A stretch of DNA of 64,000 nt from Mytilus galloprovincialis (lineage: Eukaryota; Mollusca; Bivalvia; Mytilida; Mytilidae), in the NCBI RefSeq assembly GCF_965363235.1, contig NC_134840.1:96360416-96424415 (forward strand), in the 5' to 3' direction. Positions 2,849-64,000 of this stretch are shown here, piece after piece. A model generated the notes under the pieces. That model saw only the letters and a list, made by a program, of their open reading frames with translations, did no database searches and was not told the DNA's origin. Each line of letters starts with the position of its first letter. Position 1 is the stretch's first letter. The translations under genes and the position numbers were made by a program.

Positions 2849-4702
2849 TTATTATTTTGTACAGGATATTACTTGTACAAAAACTTTGTACGAGTAATTA
2901 CTTGTATGATGCCATCATGCAAGTTATTACCTGTACAAATATTATTGTACCAGCAATTACTTGTACAATATTTGGTGAGAAAAAGATAATAACTTGTACA
3001 ACACAATATATTTGGGTTATATTTGTTTCTTCTTTTGCATTTTATGTATTATTCTTTCTTTTTCTTTGGGTTTTTTAAGTCGGGAAATTTTTGTCAATAG
3101 TTCATTTGTCAATTACCGATTTGATTCTGTTATTACACACTTTTTAAACGAATTACTTCCCTTTGTCAATCGTAAACTTGTTCCATACCGGACAAAAATG
3201 GGTTTTGCCATTGCAAAGCATGATGCATTGAAAGTGATGTATCGTCGGTTTAACTAATTTTTCATAAAATTAATTTTTGATGAAGTATTTAGCTGAATGT
3301 TCAAATTGGTGTAATTAAAAGATTTAAAAACCTTAAAGATAACTCACATTATGCACAGGTAAATTTGCTCTTTCTGCTGTCTCTCCATTGTAAATAAAAG
3401 GTGTCCCTCATACGGGAGACAACTAAAAGAAGGGATCTTTAATTTCAGGGTCAACAACGGGAGATGGAAAATAGCCTATTGTTGGGTATTTACTTATTCG
3501 TTCTTTTTTTATTTATTGTAATCATTCAGCGTATGTTTTTTTAATCTATATCGGATTTGTTTTTCTTTCCTTTTTTTATCAACTGAGTATCGATGATATT
3601 TTTTTTAAATATTAGAAGATTACAAAAAATTAACGGACGCAAAGACAAAACATAAGGTAACATGACAGCTTGTTGCCACATACAGACTACTGGTGCAAAG
3701 TGACAAAGTCCTTAAAATCAAGAACAAACTAAAAACCCTTCTATTCATTTTCAAACATAAATCATGATAAAAAGTTGCATATGTAATATCCTATATTGGA
3801 AACAAAAGTAAAGCTTGATAAATTGAATAACCTATTGGTTAGCACAAGACAAGGACGCATGACATCTAAAACTACACAATAAGCTCAATCTTTAGCATTT
3901 ACAGCCACTTTGACAGCTGTAGTGATCATGGCCATGGTCACCACTTAAAGTAAGCAATTGTACTTCTTTCATGCACGTTAAGCTCGGTGTTCTCTTGTAT
4001 GTCCCACGTTGTCTCTGAATCTTTTCGATTGATTTTGACTCATTAAACCAATCATGATTCCAGGTTTTGTTTCTATTTTGTATCTTTTTTTAGGCAATAT
4101 TTAGCACTTTTGATATTTCTACAGTCATTCGGACCCTCGGTCTATCAACTGTACAACAACAAATAATTTCGTCTCATTTGCGAATGAGTATTTTGATTTC
4201 TGCTACATTCAAAACAACATACTGCCGTAAGAAATATCTTTGATGTGCTGTCTTTTTGGAACTTAATTTTACTTCCTTACATAAATAATATTCTTACGTG
4301 TGTGAATGTCAGAATATTTGAAGAGTTATTGTCATGCCAAAATTAATCATTTCATCATGCTATTTTGTTTCTACACTGTTTTTCATCTTACACTTTAGTT
4401 TTAACTTTTTCTTAAAGTTTTGCTCGTATATTTGAGAAACAAAAAGTACACACATGTTGAATGGTTATACATTTAGGTGTTATTCATACATTATTTGTTA
4501 AATACGAAACGATTGTTGAGAACATCACATAGGCCAATGTAGAATAATGATTTGTATAAGTTATTATCTTTTTCTCAGTAAACATTGTACAAATAATTAA
4601 TTATACAATTGATTTGTACACGTAATAACCTGTATGATGGCTTCATACAAGTAAATACTTGTATAAAATGCTTGTACAAGTAATAACGTGTACAAAATAA
4701 TA
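2849..4702. mobile_element. Foldback-type DNA element with ~150-bp inverted terminal repeats
   Basis: The left end (2849-3002) and the inverted right end (4551-4702) align over about 150 bp. Both begin TTATTATTTTGTACA, carry repeated TTACTTGTACAA-like blocks and a GCCATCAT palindromic centre, and end in GAGAAAAAGATAATAACTT. The 1.55 kb interior has no transposase reading frame that I can recognise, so this is a non-autonomous element. Superfamily is unknown and no clean target-site duplication is visible. Confidence 0.8.
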
Positions 4703-32521: not shown

Positions 32522-32567
32522 ATGCATAATTCTGTCAAAATAATGTGTGGCAATCTAGTTGTAAAAC

Positions 32568-32665
32568 ACTCATCATAGATATCTAGTTTGTAATTTTGTA
32601 CACCATATGCGCGTTTCGTCTACAAACAACTTACCAATGACGCTCGAATAAAAAAATGTTAAAAT
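32568..32665 (-). repeat. Family C (hammerhead-bearing) repeat, decayed copy
   Basis: On the minus strand it reads TTCGAGCGTCA, then a diverged core, GTAGACGAAACGCGC, GGTGTAC and an ATCTATGATG-like tail. Stem II and the GAAAC box are kept, but the CTGATGA box is not, so this copy is not expected to self-cleave. Confidence 0.65.
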
Positions 32666-33947
32666 CCTTAACAAAGTACGCAGTTAAAGAGCATAAGATG
32701 GAGGACCAAAAATCGAAATGTTCAGAAAGAGACACAATTCAAACAAGGAAAGAATCAAGATATTTGTTAAATAGCTTGAAGTCATCATTTTTTTTTTTGC
32801 GCAACCAATGGTTCTCCGTCGACTTTCACGTAAACGATATGAAACAGAAATAATCATTTTTGATTTCATAACTTAAATATATTTTTGAGTACTTTATGAT
32901 AAAAATATAAAATCTGATAAAAATTCTTACATAAACTTGATGTCCTCAATTAGTTTGAAATTCACATGTTGTAAAACTTCACATCAATGGATTAAACACA
33001 GCAGCATTATTTATTTTGTGTTATCAGGTAACTAAAAACTTTGTGTGTTTGTAACTGGCTTAATAACTAGTGTCAAATTGCCCAGACTGTTAGTTAAAAT
33101 AACAAATGTGAGTGATGGCTACCACTGGACTACATGGGGTAATATAGTTCATACTAGTTTATCATACAACCATCTAATATACATTTTCTGTTCGTTAAAA
33201 CCGTTGCTTGTTTTGTGTTTGAAAGATAGCTGTAAAAAGTTAAATATACGACATCCGATGTGCTCTGATCCTGTCCATTGTATTGCATTCACAAAGATCT
33301 ACGAAGAAAACCATTGGCAAGATATTTATGCAGAAAGTTTTGTTTGTTAAAACCATTTTTCCAGGTTCAAAACTGACAAAGGCTAAATGTAAAACTTTTA
33401 TACATATAATATCACACCAATTAAAGAAGTTTTGACAATTTTCCCTGATCAGTGAATGAGACAATTCTTTTGGTATATATTTGTTAATTTTTATAAGATT
33501 TTTTTAAAAATCATAAATTATTATCATTGTTTGTTAGAATAAAAATAACAATGCACCAATTTAAGACATCACCTGTGTAAGTAAAAGTATCTTTGTTTTC
33601 AGTTGCATATAGGTGAGTGAAACAAATACCCGATAATGTGACTCTTCGTGTTTGTTGGGGTTTAATTTTAATAGCTAACTTTCGCTTCCGTAATTTCTTT
33701 CTAATTTCTCTTATCATTTCAGGGAAAGGCTAACTTTAATTCCACTTTTGAATATTATAATTTCGTATCACTTCATATAATATCTATATGATTTTCAAAT
33801 ATAGAAATTCGGTGCTCTCATAAAAACAAAAATTGAAATAAGAATTTTAAAAAAATAATAGCGTCATAAAAATAAAACGGTGTTATGATATTCGATAAAA
33901 ATTATAAAAAAAAATCAAACAGAGAGATTAATGAGATTGAGACATTC
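32666..33947. other. Gene-free spacer
   Basis: Several open frames of 60-100 codons exist here, but none resembles a known protein, and the sequence around them is as AT-rich as the rest. No gene is supported. Confidence 0.4.
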
Positions 33948-34470: not shown

Positions 34471-34570
34471 TGACTTGGATGGAGAGTTGTCTCATTTGCA
34501 ATAATATAATTATAATCCTGGTACTTTTGATAACTATTTGCACTCATACCACATCTTCTTATATCCAGTT
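34471..34570 (+). repeat. Family A end fragment containing a 36-bp insertion
   Basis: GACTTGGATGGAGAGTTGTC is followed by TCATTTGCA. The family end is interrupted at 34501-34535 by ATAATCCTGGTACTTTTGAT-containing sequence and resumes with ACTCATACCACATCTTCTT. ATTTGCA stands on both sides of the insert (34494-34500 and 34536-34542), a 7-bp target-site duplication. The insert matches the tail of family C (compare 59114-59146). Confidence 0.85.
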
Positions 34571-34797: not shown

Positions 34798-35055
34798 AAA
34801 TCTAAGAAGATGTGGTATGAGTGCCAATGATACACCTCTCCGTCGAAGTTACAATTTGTAAACGAAAAAACTATTATAGATCAAAGTATGGCCTTCAAAA
34901 TGGAAACTTGTCTCACACCGAACAGCAATCTAAATAGGACCACCTAAAATGGCTAGTGTAAAACCAACGTTTTAATCTAAATTAAAAATAAACGAGAAAC
35001 ACTTATATGAACCACATCAATAAACGACAACCACTGAACAACAGGTTCCTAAAAG
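34798..35055 (-). repeat. Family A dispersed repeat, inverted, divergent subfamily
   Basis: Starts AAGAAGATGTGGTATGAGTG, then CAATGATACACCTCTCC, ATGGCCTTCAAAATGG, CACACCGAACAGCAATC and ACGACAACCACTGAACAACA. It shares both ends with family A but differs in the middle, like the copy at 47875-48001. It lies about 230 bp from the + strand fragment at 34471-34570, so the pair could fold back. Confidence 0.8.
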
Positions 35056-53664: not shown

Positions 53665-55842
53665 AACTAACTAACTTATTATTTATACCTTATTTTGTTT
53701 ATATCAAAATATTGTCTCTCGTCTCCTAAAATGTCAAAGTAGCAGGGACAGACCACACAAGATTTTTACATAAAGGACATTTTCTTATGAAATATAAGGT
53801 GTTTTTTTTTACAAAGTAAATTTTAAATTAAAAAACTTTGAAGAGATAATCAAAATTTAAAGTATAAATCTATTGAGGCTGAGAAAATACACAGTATAGA
53901 TAAAGACATATTGGGAAGAAGACATGTCCACTGTACAGATTGTTAAATGTATATGGTTTATGTGTTTTTCTTCTAAATTCTATACTTTTCTTAAATAGCA
54001 ACCTTGTTTTTCATTTACAATTCGTGTCCGAAAGCGGTTCACAAATCTCAAAGTTATTGGAACTGATACTACAATCATTTTGATGTTATATTTCATTGAT
54101 GTTTTATTTATTATTTTGTATTGCCATATGGATGTTTGATTGTAATATATATGTATGCTACAATAGTTAAATTGGTATGAAAGTACTGATATTATCAGGT
54201 TGGGTTTTTTGTGTTGTGCAATAGTACAAGAATGTTAACATATAATATAATAATAACTTTTTTATAATACTGATTTTCACCCTCTTTTGTTGACTTTAAC
54301 TACGACAGAATCAATAGGATCTGTGTCCTCGATTTCACTTTAAAAATGTTTTTACTGTATCGAATTCAGTTTGCTATTCTGAATGCATTGCAAACAATGA
54401 ATTGTGCAAAATCGTATGCAGCAGATTTTGAAATTTGTTACGCATTGTATAGTCATAACCGATAATAGGGTGTTTATTTTAATGCAAAAGAGGGGAAACT
54501 ATGTTTCCTCTTTTCATTTCACCAGAATAGTTATTTTCATAGAGTCTTTGAATCTGTTCTAAAATTTAAAGTATAAAAAAAATACAACATTCTTGCTGCT
54601 TGTATATGTGGGGTGTGACCTTTTGATAAACTAAACTGTTATGTGTAAGCTTAGGATCATTAAAAACTGCAATTTTAATAGACTTTCTTTTACAATTTTA
54701 CATATTAGAAAGGAAAAGGAAGTACATTTTAAACAAAACATTGAATTAAATGTTAAATCGGGTTAAAATGTTATATAATATAATCAAAGAGCAGATTGCT
54801 CTGAGGGATACGATTGCCATTGTTTTCATTGACACATGTACACATGTAGCTGGATAATATTATTTTCAAAACTAATTCAACTGCACATGTAAAATGTTTA
54901 ATAAAATTTATAAAAACACTAAATATAAATACTGCTTCATTCTGATTTCCCGTGTTGTTAAAAACACGCATATAAGTCAAGGGAAATATCAAACATGAAG
55001 ATAATGAAAAGAACATTATAGGAAAGTGGTTTAAGTTCAATCCCGTTGTTTGTTTTTACCTTTTAAACCAAGACAATCATAAGAATCTGAGATGGTCCTT
55101 AATGTTTAGAATAAAACGGTTGACGTGAGGGCATTGTCCTGAGCCACTGGTATAAGTCTACAGATTGCTTGAAAGCAATCGTATCCCAAAAACATAGAAA
55201 AAAATGTGTCTTGTCATATTAGATAGAAAGGGAGGTAACACTTCATATTTTTAAAGAATCTTAATCAAATTTAAGAACAAATGTTATATATTATCAGGTC
55301 ATTTTATATTACCTAAATTAATTTTATATTTATCAACTGTACCAGTTATTTGATGTAATGAAAACGTGAAATTACTGAGTTATAATTTACTCATATTATG
55401 TTTCACGATTATAGTGGATCCTACATGTTTTTTTTTAAATATAGTGTAGCTATAATTTGATATAATCTTTGATATAAGGGCTGTCTGACTGAAAATGATA
55501 CATTGGTAAATTGCCACATCTCTCTGACCTGTTGATTGTATACATTCCATATAAAACTTCAGTCAATTGCATCTTTTACTATTATGTCATTATATGTATA
55601 GCGATATTTCATCTAAACTTAAATGTTTTGAAGAAGTTAGTGCAATATGCCAGTATCTTGCTGACTACTGTAAATAGAAATAAAATGAAAAAAAATATAA
55701 TGTTCTTTATTCCTTCCAACAGATACATCAAGTTTGAAAATACAACTGACAGGCGATTGTTCGACTGAATGTTCTTTTGACTTTTCGTTACCACTGTGAG
55801 TTTGATCAGATTTATCGATAGTTTTCGATATCATTTTTTGGC

Positions 55843-55935
55843 ATTTAAAACTTTTTTGGATTCGAGCGTCACTGATGAGTCTTTTGTAGACGAAATGCCC
55901 GTCTGGCGTAAGTACAAAATTTAATCCTGGTATCT
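55843..55935 (+). repeat. Family C (hammerhead-bearing) repeat, 5'-truncated copy
   Basis: TTTTTTGGATTCGAGCGTCA leads into a complete hammerhead core and then a TTAATCCTGGTATCTATGAT-like tail. The upstream half of the family, seen at 58940 and 61168, is absent. Confidence 0.8.
55866..55909 (+). ncRNA. Type I hammerhead ribozyme motif, second-best copy
   Basis: GCGTCA (55866-55871), CTGATGA (55872-55878), GTC-TTTTGTA-GAC (stem II, 55879-55891), GAAA (55892-55895), a 6-nt TGCCCG segment, then TC and TGGCGT (55904-55909). Stem I pairs GCGTCA with TGGCGT using G-U wobbles. Stem III is only A-U plus a U-G wobble around a 4-nt loop, weaker than in the 59068 copy. The expected cleavage is after the GTC at 55901-55903. 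Confidence 0.7.
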
Positions 55936-57224
55936 ATGATGAGTTTATTTACCGTTTTTTGTTCGGTTAGATTTATTTCCCTTGGTTATTACGTTTGATG
56001 ACAAACTGGGCTAGTTTTGTTTACCACCCAAATTAAACATATGAAACAAGCATGTCTGGTAAGAGATCCTAACTAGATCGTAGTAATGAATTATACAAGG
56101 CTTAACCAACAAGGCATTCCGAAAAAGAAACTTTTCTATTGGCTAACGACCAGTACATAATGTTGAACTTGGTTGATAAATGAAGGACTTTGTGCATGGA
56201 AAGCTCCAACATTGCGACAAAGGGAAATAATTGTATTCAATATTTCCTACTCAAATTATGTCATTCGTAAACTGTAAATTGTTGGTAGTATCAATTGACA
56301 TACTTTAACGTTAAAATAATACAACATATGTTTGTTAATCGATGAAAGTTGAAAACCTATGCACTTCATATATAACATATGAACGAAAGATTTAAAGTAC
56401 AACCACCAATGGCAGCTCTGTATTCTGATAGTGCCAATATTTCAGGGGTATTTATACAAGTTACTACACATGACATTGTGTATAGTAGTGATTTGTTTAC
56501 AAGAAAGTTCTTCGTCAAACCATAGACCAACATACCAGAGAGGACGAATATGATTGTGTGATGACTGAAGTATCTTAAAGTTGGATAAACGCCAATGGTG
56601 ATTCAGATACTCGTTCATGTAGCGAGACTCATGTGGTGGTGTATTAGCTTGTTAACTTTACTAACACTAAACAACACATGAGCTAGAATTATATCTGTTG
56701 GCTGCATAACAAATGTTTTTACATGTATGTTAAAGTTTAGTTTATGCTAAATTATCAAAATTGAAAACCTGGTATCTTCAAATACCAACAGGATTCTTAA
56801 GATAGACGTTATAGGATTCTTGAGGATTTTAAATTCTAATGAAATGATTTAAAGGGAAGAATAAACCAAAAACATTAAAAACCTAAACCATGACAATAAA
56901 GAAAAATGGAGCTTCAGAAAGATAAAAGCTTGCATACAAGTTGTTTTATAAGATTGCGCTCAAGGTGAACAGACTTGCTGTACTGTGGAAAATTTAGCTC
57001 AGACTCATTTGCAATATAGAAATGTGTTTTTATCCAGGTTTGTTTTCTTAATGTTTTATTTGTACCTTTTTAACTTGCACCTTCCGATTGTCCGTTTACT
57101 ATCTTTTGTAGGTCTCTATATCACAAGTACTAATTAAAAGATAAGACACAACACGTGAATGATTAATCAAGATAGAAATGTATTGGTATTTCTAAACTGA
57201 GACTTATTAAGTAGCAAAAACAAT

Positions 57225-57260: not shown

Positions 57261-57413
57261 CTATTTGGAAAGAATGTCCAGCACTGCCGATAACCAGATA
57301 GTAACTGCCATTGCACCTGGGTCGGGATTTGTCAACCTGTCCTGACTAACGTAACTAGATCGTCCTGCCCTAGCCTTCATTGTCGCTGTACTCTTAGCAC
57401 CTTCTGTACATTT
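57261..57413 (-). CDS. TKFC: TKFC last coding exon
   Basis: 51 codons including TAG (57261-57263): KCTEGAKSTATMKARAG, RSSYVSQDRLTNPDPGAM, AVTIWLSAVLDILSK. The acceptor is CTGTTACAG on the minus strand, phase 0. It encodes the conserved C-terminal helix of DhaL. Confidence 0.95.
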   Translation of the reverse strand, partial: KCTEGAKSTATMKARAGRSSYVSQDRLTNPDPGAMAVTIWLSAVLDILSK

Positions 57414-60400
57414 CTGTAACAGGAAGAACATTTTTTAGATACATTCAAAAAGAAACACATTTTAGATCATTAAATGGTAAATTTAGTTCACTAGAGGATA
57501 ATTTAACGACTGAATTTTAAACTCAAGAAAAGATGACAGTTACACCAACGATTTCACTATTTCCTATGATGGCGTATTAAGGTTGGTTGGTCGTATCATG
57601 TATCACTGAATTTGTATATCGTATCTTAAATAGGCTTTCACCGAAACGTGACATTAAATAAACACCAATCAATCTTATGACATGATACAGCCTCGTGTCG
57701 TTTTGTATTAAAAATGAGAATTTTAGATGTTTGTTAAATAACTTTGATACCTACAATGTTGACACCTTTTATCGTAAAATTCCTCTGTTTAACCTACCTG
57801 GACGGCTGATTTAAATGCTTCTAGAGGTGACTTGTTGGCTTTTAGGCAAGATGATAATTCCTCGCTTGCAGGATACAATGCATCCAACTAAAACAAATGA
57901 GTTTTATATTATAACACTTTATTTTATAGTAGAAAAGTCTGGCTGTCGTGACAATTTGTCCATCGTCTATGTACGTATACTTTTTTAAGTGGTCACGGTA
58001 GATATTGTTGTCTTTTTATACAAAAGTAACAAATAAAGCAAAAAAAAATTAAAAAAAAATTATTAAATAGAAAAAAAAACAAATTTCTTAATATAATGGA
58101 AACGTTCAAAATTATAAAGTAATGGTGAAAAAATTTCTTTAATAAAAACTATTGAAAATAAAGGCAGCTATTAAAGATTATCATATAAAAAATGTTCACA
58201 ACATATATATCGAAGTCACAAATTAACTTAATGATGGATGTTGTCCATCGTTACTTTCACTTTCATGGTCATTGATTCAGTTGGATCTATTTGTTCATAA
58301 ATTGTTGTCAATATAAAAGGTTTTATGCGACTGTTATACACGTGAAAGATTTAGCTATACAACTAGTTTTTATCCACCATTCTCAACATAATAAAATGTT
58401 TGGTGTGTTTGAGATTTTAATTTTGCCATTTGATTAAGCACTTTCCGTTTTAAATTTTCCTCGAAGTTCGGTATTTTCGTTATATTACTTTTCTATTCAT
58501 ACGAAATAAATACTTTCTGATCTAAGATTTTTCAATATATCACAACTCATTTAAAATAGATATCGGTAATGGTATTAACCGTGTCTTGACTAAGATTTTG
58601 AATAAAAATATTAAGAGACATACAGAACATCCTTGATATACTGACTCTTATCGTTATTTTTTCATATCCTTGCAGTAATGTAAATAAATGAATATTGTTT
58701 CAAAGATCTGACGAAACCACCAATGTATGAACAATTAAAATATAAACACTTTAGATGGTTGCTTGTGATATATTTGTAGTGTCCACTGTTCTTTATTTTT
58801 TTTGTCGCTTATCGTTTTTTGACATGACATTGTCAGTATATTTTCGACATATGAGTTGAATGTCTATTTTAGTATCTTACGTCTCTCTTTTAGTAAAATT
58901 TTTATAAATTTCCTGTTTACAAAACTTTAAATTTTTCGAAAAACTAAGGATTTTCTTATCCCAGGCATAGATTACCTTAGCTGTATTTGGCACACCATTT
59001 TGGAATTTTGGATCCTCAATGCTCTTCAACTTTGTACTTGTTTGGCTTTATAAATATTTTGATATGAGCGTCACTGATGAGTCTTATGTAGACGAAACGC
59101 GCGTCTGGCGTACTAAATTATAATCCTGGTACCTTTGATAACTATTAGTACTTATCATAAATATTTAAGAAGACATTGATTATTATTACCCGACATTGAG
59201 TAAAACTGTTAGAGACAAATTTATTTCCTTACTGATTTTCATGAAAAATAAAATGGAATGAACGAATTCACGAGCTCTTTCTGTGGGTAGGAAAACAACC
59301 ACTAGTACATATAGCTACACTGTGCTATCGGTTTAATGGTGGAGACAAATAAAAATAAAGTGTTAGATACATGTATAGCTCAATAATTATATTCAATTTT
59401 TATGTATACTCTGAACAGGACGTTGAAAAGATAATGTGTAAAAATCATTACACGATTAAACGAATTCCATATATAAAACTACGAAAACGATGTATAATGG
59501 CCAGTGAAGTAACTATCATGATCCATAGCCCGAATGACGTAGAAGTAAGCAAATATTCGTCACCGTAATCATAGAACATAAATATAAGGCCACAAAAAAG
59601 ACAAATGTAAAATGATTAAAACGAAAAAGGATAGATGATATTAATTCACATGAAGCTTTACACCAAACTTAAATACGTTTTAATTATTGGTAATTGAGAT
59701 AATAACAACAAGCAATTCATACATGGATATTATGTGTTAGAATACGCAAGTGTTCGAGGAAGGGAATGTAGAAGAGTGACAAGTGTGAAAAACCATTAAA
59801 TGGTATAGTGTTCCAATTTCAAGATAGTTCTAAACTTTCACGAGTCTCAGGCTTCTTTGTTAATTTCATAATAAAATTTGACGAAAGTTTTATGAGAGGA
59901 GAGATGGACGAGAGTACACTAGCATATTCCGTCTTTCAGAGAATGAAGTAGATAATTTTTAGACACTCTTAAACAAATCAACTAGTTGGCGATGATCGCA
60001 GTAATGTTACACATTCTGAAGCAATACTACACAGGGAAACACATTTTCTATTATACCATTCTTACCATTGTTCTATCCCCAGGGTCAGCACCACCATACC
60101 TATAATGTATTAAATCAATGAGCATACACAGTACAAGGGTAACATTTCTATTAACTTTTTATTCCCAACTGACAAGTGCAAGAAAGATAACTCATATTCT
60201 CAAATAAACAAAATTGCAAAATTTTCAATATTTCAAAATTATTTTAGAACGAAATGATTTCATGTATTATATGTCTAAAATCTGAATATGCGCCAATGAA
60301 GTGAATCTACAATAATTTAAAGTGTATTAGAAAGAAATCTCATTTTCATGATATAATGAGTTGAAATATGCATCAATTATAAAATGAAATATAATGTTTG

Positions 60401-63400
60401 TCTTACTTCCGTATGGTTGTAACACCTGCAGCTAATGCACTGCTCCACGCTAAAGGAGATATTTCCTTTTGTAGTTCACCAGCTACAGTGGTGAAAAATA
60501 AGCTGTATAACTGTGAAATATAAGAACAGAAAAAATATCAAATATTTGTTATATCTAAAGCATACAAAATGAATGTCATTAACGATGTACCAGGATTATT
60601 TATATTTATAATTTAAAACTGGAATAGATTATGACGACGTTTATATCAAAGCATTGAACTGATGATACCACCAGGAATAACAGTCAATTAGATGATGTTA
60701 TATTTTTCTACACATATAAAATGAGCAACTTACCCCTCCAGATGAACCTCCCATTGACACCTCTGCAATGTTCCCCAATCTCTTGGCCAGTTCTGCAGGA
60801 TTACCAACAGGCAAAGGATTGTCTTTGCTATTTAGTTCTGATAAAACTTCTATAAAGATGAGTATTTGTTGGTTTAATGACTTTCATCAATATTCTTTCA
60901 TGTACATATAGTACATTGACCACTACAGTATAACATGACCAGTATCTTCGTGAAACGACCGATAATAATATTTTACATAAAAAAATATCACTTCGGTACT
61001 TTGGCAAACACAAGGAAACAACAGTTTTTTCTCCGTTTATTTTGAATTTTATCTTTATTTCCTATGAAAAATACATTTACGTAGCTAATTATAAACATAC
61101 AGTTATTTTAAGATTCATTACAGCAACATACCATAACATCTTTAATTGACTCAGTAATGGACATATTTTTAAAAAATTAAAGATTTTACACCCCAGGAAT
61201 AGGTTCACCTAGGTGTATTTGATATAACATTTCTGAATTTGGTTTCTCAATGGCCTTTAACTTCGTACTATATGTGTTCTTTTAACTGTCTTATTCGAGC
61301 GTCGCTGATGACTTTTAAATGTACAAAAATGTATGCCGGTTATCTTTGATGGTTTAACCAAATGTCTTCTAAAGAAAAAAAAAACGAAAGCCCTGTGTCA
61401 CAAAACATAGACAACCCTGTTTCATAAAACATCCAATACCCTATTTTATAGGACATTAAAAACACTGACGCATCTATTGTTTGTCTCTAAAACTGTTAAT
61501 CACCAAGTGATTTTATTCTTTCTTTTTTTATCACTGAATTAACACAAAATTGTTCTTACATATGAAGGTGTTAGTATTTGTAGTAATTCAGTGTTTCTTA
61601 TGTTCTGTTGTTTTCCTCTTATAGTTGGTGTGTTTCTCTCGGTCTTGTTTTGTGACCCGGATTTGTTTTCGCTTAATCGATGTATGACTATTGAACAGTG
61701 GTATACTACTGTTACTGTTATTTATCTGTTAGCATGTTCAAAAATAAATAAAAGCCTTTTTTTATTTATGCCTCATCTTATGAGGATATTGCCTTAATTG
61801 TCAACCTGGTATCGTGAATAACTTTTATGTGTTTCCTTTTAAAGAGGGACGAAAGATACCAAAGGGAGAGTCATACTCATAAATCTAAAACAAACTGACA
61901 ACGCCATGGCTAAAAATGAAAAAGACAAACAAACAACAGCACACATGACACAACATAGAAAACTAAAGAATAAACAACACGAATCCCACCAAAAAACTGA
62001 AGGTGATCTCAGGTGCTCCGGAAGGGTAGGCAGATCCTGCTCCACATGCGGCACCCGTCGTGTTGCTTATGTGATAACAAATACGGCAAATAGTCTAATT
62101 CGGTAGGTCACATTCATTTCATTCTTAAACGTACAACACTGCTATACTTAGTGAATGTTGTACAACATAACATAAACATTTCTGTTTACCTAAAGAAATC
62201 AACTTTATGTTAATTGATCTGGGTACCTTGTGCTCCACGTGCCATGGTGCTCCCACAATCACCATCACCACTTTCTTTATCTAGACCATTTAATTTCTCT
62301 TCAGATGTGATCAGCTGTTCAGCGGCCGTTTTAACCATATCGTATAGTAGTTTCTTCATATCTTAAATAGACGATCTTTTCTCATAAGTCATCCCATTTG
62401 ATCAATATATGAAACGGTAGTTTATATATAGATGACCTAAGATGCGTTCTGTATTCAATGCTTTTCAACTCCGTTGTTTTTTGTTGTTCTTTTTTAACTT
62501 TTTTAACCTGGTGTGACTGACAAGTCTTTTGTAGACGAAACATGCGTCTGGCTTTCAAGTTATTAAACCTGGTATCAATAATGAGTTTGTTTATCGATGT
62601 TTAAACAGGTATTTAAACTTTAGGTATATAAAAAAGTTATAAACCAGTAGGACATGCTTTTATCTAAAATACTATAATACTTTGTTCTACTCAAGATGTC
62701 TTTTAAAAAAGTCTATGAATCGTACTTTGCATCTACAATATAAAGATTGGCTCCTTGTTGTGTATTTTTGCTGTCTTTTATCATGCATGCACTTGACGTA
62801 TGTCTGCCTTTTTATCTTGTGTTATTATACCTGCACTGACTGTGTCTTTCACAGCTTGCTGTGTTGTGATAGTGTGTGAATCTTCTGTAACAAGCTTTTG
62901 AGGAGTTGTTCTGGTACGTTCGCCACAGGGTAAATAAGGACGAACCCAACCTGGTGCATTTGTTTCTGCATCTATAAGAAAATAATTGTTCAGAGATGAA
63001 ACATTTTAAAGATTCCTTGAGTAGTCGATACTAAGCCAGTTGAAGAGGTAGAGCTAGGGAATTACATCTATAGCTCATGCTCTCCAATTACAAAATCAGT
63101 ATTTTTATTTTCAATTATAAAACATGTTTTACTGGTAACTGATTTCGTTATTTGTATCCTAAAAAAGTAATGCCTTAATAATGTGTTCCAACTGAACATT
63201 TTTCTTTTTAAGTAGTTTTAATGAAAAATAGCTTTGCAATAAGAAAAGAAACAACACATGGACGAATATTGTGTTATCAAATAACATTATTGTAACGTTT
63301 GTCTACCAACAGTCACCTGCTCAATTCTTTATTTTACTCACCTACACAATTCCTTAGTGTTCTCACCTAAACAATTTCTTATTGTACTCACCTAAACAAT

Positions 63401-63633
63401 TCCTTATCGTACTCGCCAAAACAATTTATTATTGTACTCACCTAAACAATTCATTATTGTACTCACCTAAACAATTCATTATTGTACTCACATAAACAAT
63501 TCATTATTGTACTCACCTAAACAATTCCTAAGTGTATCGTCTAAATGCAACAGAGTGATAGAAATACCAGCCATCTCTAAGGATGTTGTAAAAGATCCGC
63601 AATAAACTCTTTCTACTGCTACGCCTCTCGATT
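57261..63633 (-). CDS. TKFC: Triokinase/FMN cyclase (dihydroxyacetone kinase family), 3' half, eight exons
   Basis: Read on the minus strand, exons 63633-63517, 62971-62831, 62361-62227, 60849-60734, 60510-60407, 60099-60066, 57887-57798 and 57413-57261 join into one open frame of 295 codons plus stop. TKFC phosphorylates dihydroxyacetone and glyceraldehyde with ATP (fructose and glycerol metabolism) and can split FAD to cyclic FMN; it is a cytosolic dimer. The first exon holds the end of DhaK (ERVYCGSFTTSLEM). The DhaL domain carries LDKESGDGDCGSTMARGA (Mg-nucleotide-binding aspartates), MGGSSGG-LYSLFF, KYGGADPGDRTMLDALYPA, TMKARAGRSSYV and a DPGAMAVTIW end, all diagnostic. The human protein is about 575 residues, so roughly half lies beyond the right edge. 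The gene converges on Vsx copy B and is functionally unrelated to it. Confidence 0.95.
57798..57887 (-). CDS. TKFC: TKFC exon (DhaL helix)
   Basis: 30 codons, phase 0 at both ends: LDALYPASEELSSCLKANKS then PLEAFKSAVQ. The acceptor is TTGTTTTAG and the donor GTAGGT. It continues the GDRTM-LDAL motif from the previous exon. Confidence 0.94.
58412..58490 (+). repeat. Dispersed repeat family B, partial
   Basis: TTTTGCCATTTGATTAAGCA, CTTTCCGTTTTAAATTTTCC, TCGAAGTTCGG and a TATTACTTT end, matching the second half of 1-146. It lies in a TKFC intron. Confidence 0.8.
58940..59146 (+). mobile_element. Family C repeat, longest copy (~207 bp), hammerhead-bearing
   Basis: Starts near AAACTAAGGATTTTCTTATC, then CCCAGGCATAGATTACCTTA, GGAATTTTGGATCCTCAATG, CTCTTCAACTTTGTACTTG, the hammerhead (59068-59111) and a tail AAATTATAATCCTGGTACCT, TTGATAACTATT. 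The order is the same in the copy at 61168-61352. It sits in a TKFC intron on the strand opposite to the gene. The short length, lack of coding sequence and built-in ribozyme fit the retrozyme / SINE-like hammerhead families known from animals. Confidence 0.8.
59068..59111 (+). ncRNA. Type I hammerhead ribozyme, intact core
   Basis: Stem I GCGTCA (59068-59073) with TGGCGT (59106-59111); CTGATGA (59074-59080); stem II GTC (59081-59083), loop TTATGTA, GAC (59091-59093); GAAA (59094-59097); stem III A59097-T59104 and C59098-G59103 with a 4-nt GCGC loop; expected self-cleavage 3' of C59105 in GTC. All core bases of the hammerhead consensus are present. Stem III is minimal, and ACGCGCGT is self-complementary, so two molecules could pair there, as proposed for minimal hammerheads of animal retroelements. 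Confidence 0.85.
60066..60099 (-). CDS. TKFC: TKFC micro-exon (YGGADPGDRTM)
   Basis: Only 34 nt: it completes a Lys codon and encodes YGGADPGDRTM, one of the most conserved motifs of DhaL, which lines the nucleotide/substrate site. The acceptor is ATTATAG and the donor GTAAGA. An exon this short is easily missed by annotation. Confidence 0.93.
60407..60510 (-). CDS. TKFC: TKFC exon (LYSLFF helix)
   Basis: 104 nt: LYSLFFTTVAGELQKEISPL, AWSSALAAGVTTIR and two bases of Lys. The acceptor is TTTCACAG and the donor GTAAGA-like (GTAAGACA). It forms the middle helices of DhaL. Confidence 0.94.
60734..60849 (-). CDS. TKFC: TKFC exon (MGGSSGG)
   Basis: 116 nt: VLSELNSKDNPLPVGNPAEL, AKRLGNIAEVSMGGSSGG. 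The GGSSG turn binds phosphate in DhaL structures. The donor is GTAAGT. Confidence 0.94.
61168..61352 (+). mobile_element. Family C repeat, second long copy with decayed ribozyme
   Basis: TTAAAGATTTTACACCCCAG, GGTGTATTTGATATAACATT, TCTCAATGGCCTTTAACTTC and TTCGAGCGTCGCTGATGAC follow the 58940 copy. After CTGATGA the stem II / GAAA region is lost. The end is GGTTATCTTTGATGG. Confidence 0.75.
61840..62115 (+). repeat. Dispersed repeat family E (recalled from mussels)
   Basis: GACGAAAGATACCAAAGGGA, AACGCCATGGCTAAAAATGA, GGTGATCTCAGGTGCTCCGG, AAGGGTAGGCAGATCCTGCT, CCACATGCGGCACCCGTCGT and CTAATTCGGTAGGTCACATT. It is less AT-rich than its surroundings and lies in a TKFC intron. No second copy is present here; that it is dispersed in mussel genomes is recollection. 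The open frames on both strands are not recognisable proteins. Confidence 0.5.
62227..62361 (-). CDS. TKFC: TKFC exon (GDGDCG nucleotide-binding motif)
   Basis: 135 nt: MKKLLYDMVKTAAEQLITSE, EKLNGLDKESGDGDCGSTMA, RGAQ. The Asp triad in D-x4-D-x-D coordinates the two Mg ions with ADP/ATP in this family. The acceptor is ATTTAAG and the donor GTACCC. Confidence 0.95.
62440..62597 (+). repeat. Family C repeat, copy with altered ribozyme core
   Basis: CTGTATTCAATGCTTTTCAA, then GTGACTGACAAGTC, TTTTGTAGACGAAACATGCG, TCTGGC and AAACCTGGTATCAATAATGA. Stem II, GAAAC and GTC remain, but the CTGATGA box reads CTGACAA, so activity is not expected. Confidence 0.7.
62831..62971 (-). CDS. TKFC: TKFC exon (DhaK-DhaL linker)
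   Basis: 141 nt: AETNAPGWVRPYLPC ends the DhaK part, then a polar linker (ERTRTTPQKLVTEDSHTITT) and QQAVKDTVSA begins DhaL. The acceptor is TTCTTATAG and the donor GTATAA. Confidence 0.92.
63311..63535 (-). repeat. 25-bp minisatellite, 9 copies, made of a 5' splice site
   Basis: On the minus strand each unit is GAATTGTTTAG followed by GTGAGTACAATAAT. The first unit is the real exon end and donor of the TKFC exon at 63517-63633 (junction 63517/63516). Plus-strand unit starts fall exactly every 25 bp at 63311, 63336, 63361, 63386, 63411, 63436, 63461, 63486 and 63511. Units nearest the exon are nearly identical and distant ones more diverged. Seven or so keep a GTGAGT-like donor; one has GCGAGT. 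Confidence 0.95.
63517..63633 (-). CDS. TKFC: TKFC exon (end of DhaK domain)
   Basis: 117 nt: SRGVAVERVYCGSFTTSLEM, AGISITLLHLDDTLRNCL. It matches the ERVYxGxFMTSLEMAG(F/I)S motif of eukaryotic DhaK. The acceptor (ATCATCAG) is chosen because it keeps the family match and frame. The donor GTGAGT at 63516-63511 is the first of a series of tandem copies (see the minisatellite). Confidence 0.9.
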
Positions 63634-64000
63634 CTGATGATTTCAAAATAGAGAGTTAGTCACGTATTGATGTAAACCTTTTTTCTCTTAACTTAGCAAC
63701 GAGATATGAATGTGACATTTCAGTGGTTGTTTCTTGCAATATTTGTTTAGCCTTGACATAAAGACAAACGTTAATGGCAGTTTTATTTTTCTTCAGATTA
63801 TGAACGACGTTTGCATGAAATAAATCTTTCGTTTCAGTTATATTCAAATAAATGAATTCAAGAAAAAAACTAAAACGCCTCTTTTTCCATTTTAAATTTA
63901 GATAGACAAAGACAAAAATTAATAATAAATAAAAACAAGCAAATTAATGAACAAACAAGAAATGATTTTTATATGTGTTTTTCCTGTCAATGTGTATTAC
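63634..64000. other. TKFC: TKFC intron up to the right edge
   Basis: No exon of the remaining DhaK domain is visible here. A 63-codon minus-strand frame (63656-63847) does not look like TKFC or any protein I know. Confidence 0.5.

Follow-up and report, generated by a model that had tools for sequence, protein, structure and literature searches.

A hammerhead ribozyme in a probable truncated retrozyme insertion of Mytilus galloprovincialis, and the fixed 3' end of its relatives

The closest described system to the repeat presented here is the retrozyme of Mytilus galloprovincialis (Cervera and de la Pena 2020, PMC7229834), from which about 5000 type I hammerheads have been reported; they fall into two related families that lack the usual loop contacts and lie in repeats of about 350-390 bp, and circular RNA is abundant and the main form. 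Retrozymes of coral and axolotl are likewise hammerhead-bearing tandem repeats giving rise to small circles, the coral unit differing in size (220-245 bp) and the axolotl ribozymes working better as dimers (PMC7229834). Penelope-like elements and Terminons share with the mussel repeat a minimal type I hammerhead with a weak stem III and a tandem arrangement, and have been proposed as helpers (PMC7229834, PMC7761336); they are autonomous and protein-coding, whereas the mussel unit has no frame longer than 86 amino acids. The circular-template route by which such repeats would be inserted is, as far as presented in PMC7229834, a model.

Here we describe a hammerhead ribozyme in a 64,000-nucleotide stretch of M. 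galloprovincialis DNA (the window) and compare the ends of the repeat that carries it with those of its relatives in the assembly. The ribozyme and its element are of an already known kind: a sequence-only reading of the window had left it undecided whether the repeat was a retrozyme, a Penelope-like element or a SINE-like satellite, and it now fits the mussel retrozyme.

The hammerhead motif and its copies in the window

Using both the Rfam model RF00163 and a descriptor scan, a type I hammerhead ribozyme was located on the plus strand at 59068..59111, with predicted cleavage at 59105|59106. The core consists of CTGATGA (59074-59080) and GAAA (59094-59097), and GTC precedes the predicted cut. 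Stem I is made of six pairs (GCGTCA/TGGCGT, 59068-59073 with 59106-59111), stem II of four pairs with the loop TATGT (GTCT/AGAC, 59081-59084 with 59090-59093), and stem III of only two, A59097-T59104 and C59098-G59103, with the loop GCGC. All features that define type I are present within 59068-59111: the conserved CUGANGA and GAAA, a UH at the cut, and three stems, of which stem I is open. The match to RF00163 (Hammerhead_1) spans exactly these coordinates, with E of 1.5e-6 in 401 bases and 2.4e-4 in the 64-kb window with all 4227 Rfam families; a Rfam scan at the curated cut-off reported no hammerhead for 59068-59111. The covariance-model search proposed in the sequence-only reading agreed in position, but at 33.0 bits it stayed just under the curated cut-off of 34. 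On both strands of the window a stem-aware descriptor found the sites 55872 and 59074 only, and 4 of 300 Markov shuffles of the window held any such site. The core and three stems claimed before are borne out by the structure and the descriptor scan, and we regard the motif as a confirmed hammerhead, its own cleavage being predicted.

This motif belongs to copy A, a putative 5'-truncated retrozyme insertion of 249 bp on the plus strand (58898..59146), which comprises unit positions 148-355 followed by 1-41, where position 1 is the first base 3' of the cleavage. It was compared with a real 355-bp unit from another locus (L009), giving 99% and 100% identity. The repeat had been taken to be about 200 bp long; it is indeed dispersed, but its true unit is 355 bp, copy A being a truncated insertion. 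A 41-nt tail (59106..59146, plus strand), ending ...TTTGATAACTATT, follows the cleavage site and leads up to the fixed point where arrays stop. Candidate target-site duplications TTAGTA lie on the plus strand at 58890..58895 and 59145..59150, the first TT of the right one overlapping the element end. Copy A appears to be young, judging by 98-99% identity to its nearest relatives among the 40 places scored of 2108 candidates. It is a single truncated unit, in contrast to the published tandem repeats (PMC7229834). With only one ribozyme and with unit positions 42-147 missing, it has no means of freeing a monomer by itself and would at most cut plus-strand RNA crossing the copy.

Copy B (55834..55960, plus strand) ends with the tail of a second subfamily, ...GATGAGTTTATT. 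Its ribozyme, at 55866-55909, keeps the same core, as had been stated before, and gives the descriptor site 55872; the model that fits it best, RF00008, scores 23.5 bits, far under its cut-off of 48.5 (E 1.6). The core is broken in copy C (62455..62602, plus strand; CTGACAA at 62517) and in copy E (32565..32718, minus strand), and the second half of the ribozyme is deleted in copy D (61166..61328, plus strand), where by eye the tail-like sequence continues for some 20 nt, so that two of the five long copies, A and B, keep the core. A further insertion of about 35 nt (34501..34535, plus strand) consists of the tail only, with 94% identity to unit positions 11-46, and splits another dispersed repeat. 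It is flanked on the plus strand by ATTTGCA at 34494..34500 and 34536..34542, a target-site duplication of 4-7 nt, as ATT may be the element's own, and an uninterrupted paralogue of the host repeat, with ATTGGCA at 34822..34828 on the minus strand, provides the empty site. With five long copies and this tail, the earlier count of at least five copies in various states of decay holds. Elsewhere in the window the mir-5014 model matched both strands, far under its cut-off, at 2867-2958 and 4608-4701, perhaps because of an inverted-repeat (MITE-like) structure.

The isolated motif of copy A reaches -5.7 kcal/mol as a hammerhead against -9.2 for its best fold, which is not a hammerhead, and that of copy B -3.7 against -12.7; the z-scores of monomer folds were unremarkable. 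Dimer-assisted cleavage had been suggested for the site. Two strands of the bare copy A 44-mer, when folded freely, form exactly a double hammerhead (-29.5 kcal/mol), but this energy does not stand above that of dinucleotide shuffles, 627 of 1000 pairing as strongly and 254 of 1000 having an equal gain over the monomers, and the double hammerhead disappears when flanks of any of four lengths from 5 to 40 nt are added. The two-strand fold of copy B is not a double hammerhead. By these models, cleavage of the copy A motif as a dimer is possible but weakly indicated. Dimers seem not to be required, because a cloned mussel repeat self-cleaves co-transcriptionally at about 0.1 per minute (PMC7229834) and most invertebrate type I motifs are reported to cut as monomers (PMC7761336).

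As for the host gene, Pfam was run on eight frames, of which four had a match, all on the minus strand, and four had none. The end of Dak1 was found at 63488..63655 (PF02733, E 1.8e-10) and Dak2 positions 127-173 at 57261..57434 (PF02734, E 7.8e-10), the last detected exon; both pass the cut-off. Frames with likely exons below the cut-off lie at 62210..62362 (PF02734, Dak2 positions 3-17, E 0.0057) and 60698..60883 (PF02734, Dak2 positions 18-56, E 0.098). The frame 60051-60158 may be another exon, by its likeness to the human protein. The name TKFC is taken over from the sequence-only reading, and the order of Dak1 and Dak2 domains fits it. Copies A, C and D, all on the plus strand, are placed between detected exons and, as the exon matches are on the minus strand, are antisense to them, so an antisense ribozyme would leave the TKFC pre-mRNA uncut. 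The repeat placed inside TKFC by the sequence-only reading, copy A, is therefore in antisense, and copy B, likewise antisense to the exons, is past the last detected one. A ribozyme in a TKFC intron is ordinary in itself. A tandem array of a 25-bp repeat occupies window positions 63297-63571.

The repeat unit and the ends of its arrays

The first search, with copy A as query in the 1.385-Gb assembly, gave 2108 candidate places; scoring 40 of them yielded 55 matches. Fetched arrays have one ribozyme per unit, mostly 355 bp apart (single-unit spacings 353-366); two arrays of a second set, described below, have units of 328 and 346 bp. The ribozyme core is intact in 81 of 91 ribozyme-bearing units, in a set fetched by a ribozyme-containing query. 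An exact pattern of the bases around the cut and the tail, excluding the ribozyme, has 6,091 matches in the genome (2972 + 3119) and none in the reversed control; counted by eye among the 100 matches listed, 20 form 10 adjacent pairs 338-356 bp apart, and the others mostly stand alone as exact matches. The unit has a GC content of 38% and, when tripled as a circle and read from stop to stop, no frame longer than 86 amino acids, in accordance with the earlier statement that the repeat is non-coding; a reverse transcriptase of its own, as expected of a Penelope-like element, is not encoded within such frames. ARAGORN found no tRNA gene in three element-bearing loci (L009, L011 and L042). Viral contigs, prokaryote genome contigs, plasmids and phages contained no match to the element, which carries little weight for these non-animal collections.

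Period, number, subfamilies and missing loop contacts agree with the report on the mussel retrozyme (PMC7229834), and because of this the element fits the published non-LTR retrozyme of M. galloprovincialis, to which we match it by description and not by letters. Shared are the type I hammerhead without the usual loop contacts, the thousands of copies, a tandem unit within 350-390 bp, related subfamilies, the absence of coding sequence and the low GC content (PMC7229834).

The 3' ends of arrays were examined in two sets. The first comprised 36 fetched loci and the window, with 41 arrays passing thresholds of 90% identity and 100 bp, older diverged copies being excluded. At unit positions 39-48 end 39 of these 41 arrays, 19 of them exactly at 41; in the remaining two the alignment halts at 355 and the sequence continues into a diverged tail. 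As this query had contained the tail, a second search was run with positions 148-310, lacking both ribozyme and tail, for which 17 further stretches were fetched; from these, L054 (duplicate of L046), the array of L050 that leaves its stretch, and three older copies below 85% identity in L046, L054 and L058 were set aside. Here 12 of 16 arrays with a readable end stop at 41-44, the other four at 175, 336, 355 and 23; the second array of L048 adjoins a match without being matched itself, and leaving it out gives 11 of 15. Nine tails of the second subfamily were present in the fetched DNA: two continue into the next unit (one by the script threshold, the other, in L016 at 2605, by eye), and six of the other seven diverge right after ...GAGTTTAT or a few bases on. 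The flanks of L046 and L054 are identical, apparently owing to duplication after insertion. Extra constraint on the ribozyme was also considered, and rejected as unproven: the lower variability of the ribozyme in the first set (1.6% against 3.1-3.3%) is biased by the ribozyme-containing query, and in the second set the ribozyme did not vary less (5.4% against 3.6-4.4%).

Target-site duplications were measured in 38 arrays with the final TT of the tail as anchor, two further arrays having been dropped for their diverged tails and a third because its stretch ended there; the two copies of L043, whose flanks are identical, apparently by duplication after insertion, were both counted. Duplications of at least 6 bp flank 9 of 38 arrays, against 0.54 expected from swapped flanks, and those of at least 5 bp flank 10 of 38 (1.44 expected), leaving 28 without. 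Duplications of more than 4 bp, where there are any, characterise metazoan non-LTR retrozymes, and these ten agree with that. The mean length of 2.9 against 1.4 exceeds that in all 500 permutations (largest 2.2); an unanchored search gave a smaller excess (mean 4.2 against 3.4). At each of the two positions following TT, C occurs in 0 of 38. At L023 the insertion adjoins telomere-like TTAGGG repeats, with the duplication TTAGGGTTA.

In contrast to the 3' ends, the 53 starts (37 from the first set, with L043 counted once, and 16 from the second) scatter round the circle, with a borderline deviation from uniformity (KS p 0.054). Only one of 53 lies within 3 nt of position 42 and one within 3 nt of position 1 (1.05 expected in each case), so there is no pile-up at 42 to mark the full-length 5' end of a linear SINE, nor at 1, where a ribozyme-cut monomer would start; positions 346-354 hold three, against 1.3 expected. 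Very short insertions are under-sampled in these figures, as the queries favour long copies. In L015, L020 and one L031 array the start at first seemed to coincide with the cleavage site, but longer alignments moved it to 347, 353 and 349, respectively. First-set arrays are 213-1963 bp long, i.e. 0.6 to 5.5 laps; of 118 internal junctions, 105 have the exact form 355|1 and 13 do not. Units diverge by a median of 1.9% within arrays (82 pairs) against 4.8% between them (3394 pairs), and in 19 of 21 arrays the units resemble one another more closely than they resemble those of other arrays (in two they do not), which fits one template molecule per array.

Tails without a nearby ribozyme were followed through 295,835 bases (36 loci and the window). 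They are truncated or diverged retrozyme copies or weak matches, and among these nucleotide matches none was seen joined to a LINE or Penelope-like gene, so that no helper enzyme came to light in this DNA. Genome-wide, 899 tails have a preceding base other than T. Among five inspected, L063, L064 and L066 are retrozyme units, while L062 and L065 match around the ribozyme and tail only. L062 (G000:C1:38165000-38165620) is a tandem family with a 434-bp unit of unrelated body; the match, with 84-86% identity, begins at position 270, crosses the ribozyme and ends at 45. Its ribozyme is presumably inactive, the core reading CTGGTGG.

How the insertions may be made

The sequences themselves show a hammerhead motif in a tandem element whose insertions have one fixed end, scattered starts and, above chance, target duplications. 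We consider it probable that copy A is a 5'-truncated, single-ribozyme insertion of the mussel non-LTR retrozyme, made by target-primed copying of circular RNA. Transcripts of tandem copies would be cut at every hammerhead, and the resulting monomers of roughly 355 nt closed into circles, the formation of which has been published for the Mytilus retrozyme (PMC7229834). A retrotransposon reverse transcriptase would begin on the circle at a fixed place, about unit position 41, probably primed by the nicked target, whose AA end may pair with UU of ...ACUAUU, since TT is common to tail and duplication. It would then go round for a partial lap to several laps, halting anywhere, and would leave insertions that share their 3' end, differ in where they begin, have tandem units meeting at the ribozyme site and are flanked by short target-site duplications. 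We favour a circular template, the published main form (PMC7229834), because copying that begins at a fixed site, meets no template 5' end and can pass the junction repeatedly accounts for these observations together. In the circular minimum-energy fold of one unit the ribozyme stems are not formed, stem I pairing at 0.001 or below and stem II at about 0.15; this agrees with the published remark that in some mussel circles, exceptionally, the ribozyme is predicted not to fold freely (PMC7229834). Once inserted, arrays could also grow by unequal crossing-over at the DNA level.

The same product might be obtained without a circle. LINEs and SINEs typically have a fixed 3' end, a ragged, often truncated 5' end and short target duplications, and the fixed end, truncation and duplications observed here would suit a linear SINE running from position 42 round to 41 and moved by a LINE, with tandems arising by template jumping or recombination and the hammerhead incidental. 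We find this unlikely. Starts are not accumulated at 42, ARAGORN gave no tRNA gene in the three loci tested, units of one array are more alike than units across arrays, and circular RNA of the mussel element has been published (PMC7229834). The mussel element differs from LINE-moved SINEs in having no preferred full-length 5' end, multi-lap tandems and a ribozyme at the unit junction.

Equally improbable to us is an uncleaved linear multimer, transcribed from a genomic array and copied from the same internal start. Copying such a multimer would likewise produce insertions with one 3' end, scattered starts, exact 355|1 junctions and units that are alike within an array, and variants do not discriminate between the two: in ten arrays with at least four units, 164 of 184 variable sites were private to one unit and 20 shared by a subset, and random units of different arrays give 8% shared. 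Such transcripts, however, should be cut, the core being intact in 81 of 91 ribozymes, and the published mussel retrozyme RNA is mainly circular (PMC7229834).

That the repeat is satellite DNA, its arrays grown by unequal exchange and its ribozyme a fossil, has a parallel in the 434-bp tandem family of L062 with its broken core, but is very improbable, since single and partial copies share the fixed end, duplications exceed chance and one insertion in the window has an uninterrupted paralogue. A chance or dead, inactive hammerhead-like motif, to which the score just under the cut-off and the non-hammerhead fold of the isolated motif might point, is hardly credible, given that only 4 of 300 shuffles hold any site, that 81 of 91 units keep the core and that a cloned mussel repeat self-cleaves (PMC7229834).

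Implications for the helper enzyme and for animal retrozymes

The main text of PMC7229834 describes tandem repeats and target duplications, but we saw no fixed 3' end or scattered 5' ends reported there; the words 'truncated', 'rolling' and 'priming' are absent from that text, and target-primed copying is named in it once, as a possibility. The insertion rule was not found in the searchable literature, including PMC7229834, PMC7761336 and PMC10886601, subscription papers, preprints and supplements being outside this scope. What is new here is one fixed 3' end together with scattered 5' starts that do not pile up at a linear 5' end.

Extended to animal retrozymes in general, our proposal is somewhat less secure than for copy A, although we still lean towards it: they would be inserted by target-primed copying of circular RNA starting about 41 nt past the junction, the ribozyme and tail would make up a transferable module, of which L062 has a diverged version in its own 434-bp unit, and the tail would be the recognition site of the helper. 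According to a 2020 review, the helper retrotransposon cannot be deduced from metazoan retrozyme repeats, as these lack a conserved motif that would point to it (PMC7761336). The fixed 3' end and scattered starts provide insertion evidence for the circular-template route, and the 41-nt tail (...CCTGGTACCTTTGATAACTATT), with the target rule of a shared TT and no C at either of the two following bases in 38 sites, offers handles for finding the helper.
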